Shown piece after piece: positions 31,862 through 33,468 of a stretch of 64,000 nucleotides of DNA. The notes beneath the pieces are model-generated. The model searched no databases and was not told the origin of the DNA. It saw nothing but the letters and a program-made list of their open reading frames with translations. The DNA lies in assembly GCA_016932035.1 (NCBI GenBank), contig JAFGDR010000036.1, forward strand, positions 24,715-88,714. The letters are read 5' to 3'. Numbering within the stretch: position 1 is the stretch's first letter; every line of letters starts with the position of its first letter. The position numbers were made by a program, and so were the translations under genes. The stretch is from Candidatus Cloacimonadota bacterium. GTDB taxonomy: Bacteria; Cloacimonadota; Cloacimonadia; JGIOTU-2.

Positions 31862-32452
31862 TTAACCTATATGATAACGAGCATACTTCTTTATATTTAT
31901 ATTTTCACCAAGCTTGAGTACTGCATCGGAGATAAGTTCTTTGACTGTGATATCTTCGTTCATAATAAAGGGCTGACTCAAAAGGCAGTTTTCTGTATAA
32001 TATTTTTTTATCTGACCTTCAACGATCTTATCGACGATATTCTCAGGTTTTCCTGCTTTAAGTGCTCTTTCTCGATAAATCTCTTTTTCAGCTTCAACAA
32101 GTTTGGGATCGAGATCTTCCTCAGCAATTGCAAGTGGATCAGTGGCTGCGATGTGCATTGCAATTTTATTTGCAAGCTCGGTAAAGTCGTCTGTTTTTGC
32201 AACAAAGTCTGACTCACAGGCAATCTTAACCAACACACCAAGTTTTGCTCCAGGATGAATATATGCATGAATGATACCTTCGTTGGACTCACGCTCTGAT
32301 TTTTTCTCTGCTTTTGCTAATCCACTGGTTCTCAGAATTTTAACGGCTTCTTCAAGGTTGCCATCTGCATCCTTGAGTGCCTTTTTGCACTCCATTAATC
32401 CAACACCAGTTTTATCTCTTAATTCTTTTACTAATTTTGCTGTAATTTCCAT
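31862..32452 (-). CDS. tsf: Elongation factor Ts
   Basis: A 196-aa EF-Ts, nucleotide exchange factor for EF-Tu. The N-terminal KELRDKTGVGLMECKKAL motif and EGIIHAYIHPGAKLGVLV are diagnostic; VACE-type SDFVAKTDDF follows. It is the short, single-core-domain form seen in several phyla, not the 280-aa E. coli form. CGGAG precedes the ATG, and it lies 14 nt after rpsB. Confidence 0.96.
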   Translation of the reverse strand: MEITAKLVKELRDKTGVGLMECKKALKDADGNLEEAVKILRTSGLAKAEKKSERESNEGIIHAYIHPGAKLGVLVKIACESDFVAKTDDFTELANKIAMHIAATDPLAIAEEDLDPKLVEAEKEIYRERALKAGKPENIVDKIVEGQIKKYYTENCLLSQPFIMNEDITVKELISDAVLKLGENINIKKYARYHIG

Positions 32453-32466
32453 AATAGCTCCGTATA

Positions 32467-33468
32467 TTATTTTTGATGAACCAATCCAAGATGGATCTTC
32501 AAACCACGCTTGGAGGAGAATGTTTTACCACAGTCGGGGCATTCGAAACGTTTCTCTTTCTTTTCTTCAGGTTCTTCTTTCGGTTCTTCTACTTTTTCTG
32601 TATCTTTAGCTTTTGATTTTTTCGCTTTTTTCTCTTCTTTAGGTTGAGGTTCTTCAATCTCTTCTTCAACAACATCCTCTACATCTTCCACATCTTCTTC
32701 AGGTTCTTTTGCAACCTCTTCAGTTTCAACTATCTCTTGTACTTCTTGTTTTGCTTCAAATTCTGAAATATCGCCACCTTCGGCTGCAATTCTTTTTCCT
32801 TCGATTACTGCTTCAGCCATAATATCGCAAATGAGATTTACTGATTTCATTGCATCATCATTTCCTGGTATGACATAATCGATGCCATCAGGATCGCCGT
32901 TTGTATCAACAATTGCAACGATAGGAATATCGAGATTCTTTGCTTCGTTTACTGCATTTTTTTCATATACAATATCAGCGATGAACAAAGCAGAAGGCAC
33001 CTGTTCCATATCCCTGATTCCACCAAGAGCACTCAGTATTTTATCATACTTCCTTTGCATTTTGAGTATCTCGAGTTTGGTGAATTTATTGATCTCACCG
33101 GTTTCCTGAAGATTCTCAAATTCATCGAGTTTGGAAATACTCTGACGGATGGTTTTAAGATTAGTAAGTGTTCCACCATACCATCTGTTACTGATAAAGA
33201 ACTCGTCGCATTTCTCAGCAGCATTCTGAATACCTTCGGATACCTGCTTTTTTGTTCCGACAAACAGAATTCTTTTACCTTTTGCTGCGAGTTCTCTGAT
33301 AAAGTAGTACGCTTGATTGATGGCTTCGAGGGTTTGTTTTAGATCAATGATGTGAATCCCATTCCTTTTAATGAAGATGTAGCGCTTCATTTTAGGATTC
33401 CAGCGTCGAGTTTGATGACCAAAATGAACACCAGCCTCGAGAAGACTTTTCATTTCAACGACACTCAT
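32467..33468 (-). CDS. rpsB: 30S ribosomal protein S2 with C-terminal C2H2 zinc finger
   Basis: S2 bridges the 30S head and body and helps recruit S1. Residues 1 to about 230 are a normal S2 (LLEAGVHFGHQTRRWNPKM, NRWYGGTLTN, DTNGDP). It continues for about 100 residues: a Glu/Lys-rich low-complexity linker (about 237-307), then a TFIIIA-type zinc finger with C310, C313, H326 and H331 (C-x2-C-x12-H-x4-H) plus the canonical hydrophobics F308, F317 and L323. The frame is open and ends HLGLVHQK. The total of 333 aa is far longer than the usual 230-260. GGAGG precedes the ATG. First gene after a 102-nt leader. Confidence 0.95.
   Translation of the reverse strand: MSVVEMKSLLEAGVHFGHQTRRWNPKMKRYIFIKRNGIHIIDLKQTLEAINQAYYFIRELAAKGKRILFVGTKKQVSEGIQNAAEKCDEFFISNRWYGGTLTNLKTIRQSISKLDEFENLQETGEINKFTKLEILKMQRKYDKILSALGGIRDMEQVPSALFIADIVYEKNAVNEAKNLDIPIVAIVDTNGDPDGIDYVIPGNDDAMKSVNLICDIMAEAVIEGKRIAAEGGDISEFEAKQEVQEIVETEEVAKEPEEDVEDVEDVVEEEIEEPQPKEEKKAKKSKAKDTEKVEEPKEEPEEKKEKRFECPDCGKTFSSKRGLKIHLGLVHQK

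Follow-up and report, generated by a model that had tools for sequence, protein, structure and literature searches.

What does a classical zinc finger do at the end of a bacterial ribosomal protein? The question is raised by the rpsB gene of a 64,000-nucleotide stretch of Candidatus Cloacimonadota DNA (GCA_016932035.1, contig JAFGDR010000036.1, positions 24,715 to 88,714; hereafter the window), whose product, ribosomal protein S2 (uS2), carries a C2H2 finger behind a charged C-terminal linker. S2 belongs to the universal set of ribosomal proteins; in Escherichia coli it serves as the dock of S1, which is anchored on it beside the metal pocket H18, D188, D204 and D205 (PMC4288201). In this study, the finger-bearing S2 was found to be confined to, and near-universal in, one family of uncultured, anaerobic Cloacimonadota (Candidatus Celaenobacter and relatives; family f1), and the finger is probably a working addition to the ribosome and not an accident.

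The rpsB reading frame runs from ATG to TAA, and its product matches Ribosomal_S2 (PF00318) as a full-length domain (308 bits, residues 9-224) and TIGR01011 (329.6 bits, cut-off 76.3). The gene adjoins tsf, the operon position of bacterial uS2, within an intact rpsB-tsf-pyrH-frr operon (gene names from translations of the open reading frames, ORFs), and is the sole S2 gene detected in the window's genome. The family f1 protein thus has the full core of bacterial uS2, with the four pocket residues invariant across the family, but differs in adding a disordered linker and a C-terminal finger.

An earlier note, made from the DNA letters alone, had described this finger, and its coordinates, ligands (C310-x2-C313-x12-H326-x4-H331) and hydrophobic positions (F308, F317 and L323) proved exact. 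The zf-C2H2 profile (PF00096) recognizes residues 308-331 with 26.9 bits against a gathering score of 25.2 and with the classical spacing; it matched all 14 family members scanned (E <= 0.01), and the S2 finger is its only match above cut-off in a six-frame translation of the window's genome. AlphaFold, given a 14-sequence family S2 alignment, returned a predicted local distance difference test score (pLDDT) below 50 over residues 235-304 (26-31 by block), which agrees with the flexible acidic/Lys-rich linker of about 70 residues described earlier, and of 90-92 by block for the finger. The predicted finger is of the beta-beta-alpha type (strands 308-309 and 316-317, helix 320-329), and the isolated tail gives the same predicted fold as the full S2. 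The top Foldseek neighbours of the tail in the PDB are C2H2 fingers, such as those of Kaiso, Aart and CTCF, with a root-mean-square deviation of 0.5-2 A. With its invariant ligands, the finger would be expected to bind zinc. In the linker, the Pfam scan of S2 gave no further domain above cut-off. A wider finger set or a paralogue in the window's genome was rejected, none being above cut-off, and weak second matches in family genomes lay in ORFs of about 600 amino acids and were read as prolyl-tRNA synthetase CxxC sites.

The full S2 protein was searched in 59 related genomes and the finger alone in 124 genomes of the phylum. Finger-bearing S2 occurs in 16 of the 17 family f1 genomes, representing six genera; the remaining one (G014) is 61% complete and gave no S2 match, and every f1 genome with a detectable S2 keeps the finger. 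The named records that carry this finger belong to Candidatus Celaenobacter antarcticus and to other Cloacimonadota metagenome-assembled genomes (MAGs), which places the window in this group. In the finger search, none of the 107 phylum genomes outside the family carried it: the C2H2 pattern was absent from the weak outside matches (E 0.04-0.1) that were checked (L051, L052, L053 and L055), and the matches in L054 and L056 covered query positions 3-14 only, on contigs without S2. A scan of 84,980 species with the pattern SKRGLKIH and a CxxC pattern, which divergent S2 fingers elsewhere could escape, found no other S2 with a closely similar finger. With a full S2 profile, the model never reached the His ligands in 143 Planctomycetota matches or in the approximately 150 listed of 196 Bacillota matches, and finger-profile matches in the sampled Bacillota and Planctomycetota, part of which were read, were few and weak. 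No paper linking bacterial rpsB or S2 to a C2H2 finger was found. As 16 independently assembled genomes have this finger at the end of S2, a chance motif, a frameshift, a chimera and an assembly artefact were all ruled out, in keeping with the intact frame and stop noted earlier.

Comparison of the S2 proteins of relatives, which had been proposed as a check of both finger and linker, upheld the first as conserved and found the second to be fast-evolving. In a codon comparison, the ratios of nonsynonymous to synonymous proportions (pN/pS) within the genus were 0.057 for the finger, 0.108 for the core and 0.490 for the linker, and across the family 0.239, 0.182 and 0.664, respectively; because synonymous divergence approaches saturation, the values compare proportions and are not calibrated dN/dS. 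C310, C313, K315, S319, K320, R321, G322, L323, K324, I325, H326, G328, L329, V330 and H331 are unvarying in 14 full family sequences, and G009 has R at position 320 (SRRGLKIH). Close relatives lacking the tail or bearing degenerate Cys or His, which the earlier note had regarded as fatal to its claim, were not encountered in the family: the ligands are invariant in those 14 sequences, and the finger is present on every S2 found. Invariant finger residues are encoded by up to five synonymous codons, and since the finger is conserved while synonymous sites change freely, selection acts at the protein level. An RNA-level constraint (a ribosome-binding site of tsf or an operator) was ruled out, because the synonymous sites are variable and a GGAG motif sits past the stop in the 14-base rpsB-tsf gap, outside the finger codons. 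It is the near-constancy of the finger beside a freely varying tail that suggests a function.

As for what that function may be, we assign a probability of roughly 45% to a zinc-folded finger that is tethered to S2 near the exit of messenger RNA (mRNA) and grips RNA locally alongside S1. With its disordered tether of about 70 residues, the S2 of the family would hold one C2H2 finger out on the solvent face of the 30S subunit, close to where S1 docks and mRNA exits. The finger, binding zinc, would stay on mature ribosomes, and its basic helix face (K/R320, R321 and K324, with K315) would grip ribosomal RNA (rRNA) of the head or platform, or mRNA on its way out of or into the 30S, and so help docking or assembly beside S1 without replacing it. 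RNA, whether rRNA or mRNA, is the most likely contact. In the usual finger numbering, helix positions -1, 1, 2, 3, 5 and 6 are S319, K320, R321, G322, K324 and I325. A face that is basic and conserved, and has Gly at position 3, where bases are mainly read, appears less suited to sequence-specific reading of DNA than to contacts with phosphate or RNA or to service as a docking surface. Several points weigh on the other side: a single finger is usually a weak nucleic-acid binder, helix position 3 is Gly, the Foldseek E-values are >= 0.1 (probabilities near 1) because the fold is so small, and I325, L329 and V330 resemble a hydrophobic surface and may indicate a protein partner.

Such a partner is central to a second, rather unlikely explanation, by which I325, L329, V330 and the basic residues form a docking knob through which the tether brings a protein to the 30S, for instance RNA polymerase, a nuclease, a hibernation factor or S1. 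The invariance of hydrophobic residues beyond the usual finger core argues for it, as does the second S1-like gene of about 500 amino acids that most other Cloacimonadia families have and f1 lacks, which suggests that S1-S2 traffic differs in this clade; however, LKIHxGxVH is shared by an unrelated phage finger (L079) and may be partly structural, the S1 correlation depends on one branch, and the single genome of the finger-less family f2 has no second S1-like gene either. Control of the operon by free S2, with the finger binding its own rpsB-tsf mRNA or DNA, is distinctly improbable: ribosomal proteins commonly regulate their own operons and this operon is intact, but one finger alone reads DNA poorly when its main reading position is Gly. 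Still harder to credit is a mobile zinc ligand that stabilizes the tail or reports zinc status; S2 does have a metal pocket where it meets S1 (PMC4288201), and the pocket residues are kept here, yet the conservation of the non-ligand helix residues S319, R321, K324 and I325 goes beyond what holding zinc needs. Least probable of all is a finger captured passively, perhaps from a phage gene, and tolerated without function or clipped off: although phage and phage-like proteins do end in fingers that follow acidic or Lys linkers, conservation strongly disfavours it, as judged from a within-genus pN/pS below that of the S2 core beside a drifting linker and from retention of the finger wherever S2 was found in the family.

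In the family, S1 and S21 are both present and ordinary, S1 covering almost the full length of the rpsA model, by which compensation for a lost S1 or S21 was ruled out; because the pocket residues are invariant and both proteins are present, the finger adds to the S1-S2 site and does not replace it. With the exception of f1 and f2, which both appear to lack it, most Cloacimonadia families have the second S1-like gene besides rpsA; it was read at L119:1663-3180, where it adjoins an apparent lysS, and at L120:1631-3328. A match at G015:C76, in a genome with 8% contamination, reads as an f1-type rpsA. This is one evolutionary contrast, which proves nothing and makes the S1-S2 site of the f1 clade worth examining. 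The S1 of the window's genome (L122:125-2473) has a long acidic/Lys-rich extension of its N-terminus, about 200 residues, which resembles the S2 linker in character.

As the S2 tails of finger-less Cloacimonadia are also charged, the finger probably joined a pre-existing tail. In a tree of S2 cores, with f2 represented by a single genome and with long branches for L014 and L016, the sampled finger-less families except f2 form one clade (support 96/90), apart from f1 and f2; a single gain at the base of f1 is probable, while a gain before the f1/f2 split followed by loss in f2 would also be compatible with the tree. C-terminal C2H2 fingers behind acidic or Lys-rich linkers occur in phage and phage-like proteins, which are a plausible source, and the earlier remark that such fingers are rare in bacteria needs softening, since single ones are likewise seen in proteins of phages and in phage-like bacterial proteins. 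Small proteins of this recurring design, ending in one finger behind an acidic linker, were read at L076:4746-5075, L077:4638-5075, L081:4746-5090, L085:2823-3167 and L090:4629-5090; in L076, L077, L081 and L090 Pfam names little besides the finger. The closest viral finger found ends a phage protein at L079:4119-5102 (EFICPICNKSFTTDLGLKIHIGRVH), which has a weak MptE-like/sialyltransferase-like match and lies on a contig bearing IMG number 3300035698, which denotes an Ace Lake metagenome from which Celaenobacter MAGs also come. L079 has GLKIHxGxVH in common with the S2 finger, and L076, L077, L079 and L081 resemble S2 in their C-terminal finger behind an acidic or Lys-rich linker, but the cores of the phage and phage-like proteins are unrelated and non-ribosomal.

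Among known systems, the S2 finger is like classical C2H2 fingers in its C-x2-C-x12-H-x4-H spacing, hydrophobic core, beta-beta-alpha model and above-cut-off Pfam score, and unlike them in that it stands alone, on a ribosomal protein of a bacterium. Ros/MucR fingers are also bacterial Cys2His2 zinc sites, but are defined by a 9-residue spacer and a larger domain (PMC9779718), so the S2 finger, with the classical 12-residue spacer, falls outside that family. A precedent for S2 with an extra domain is NF051451 ('30S ribosomal protein S2, sunset domain variant'); the window S2 is a different variant, scoring 282 against a cut-off of 710 with a match that ends at residue 305, before the finger. 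The features are listed in Table 1.

Table 1. Features of the rpsB region in window coordinates
Feature	Positions	Strand	Basis
rpsB, ribosomal protein uS2, 333 amino acids with C-terminal extension	32467..33468	-	ORF and translation, PF00318, TIGR01011
S2 core, residues 1-225	32794..33468	-	Invariant columns; H18, D188, D204, D205 kept
Acidic/Lys-rich linker, residues 235-305, predicted disordered, fast-evolving	32554..32766	-	pLDDT, pN/pS
C2H2 zinc finger, residues 308-333	32470..32547	-	Pfam, AlphaFold, PDB fold matches, conservation
tsf (EF-Ts), following gene of operon	31862..32452	-	14 bases past rpsB stop

The S2 finger is a small, isolated module, and it indicates that strong selection can maintain a classical C2H2 finger in a housekeeping protein of bacteria. 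Our tentative proposal is that the ribosome of this family has on S2 a tethered, RNA-binding C2H2 finger, serving as a lineage-specific arm for handling mRNA or rRNA beside S1. If so, a whole bacterial family would clearly have added a nucleic-acid-binding module to the core ribosome, and this would be an instance, in bacteria, of ribosome specialization through a eukaryote-style finger.
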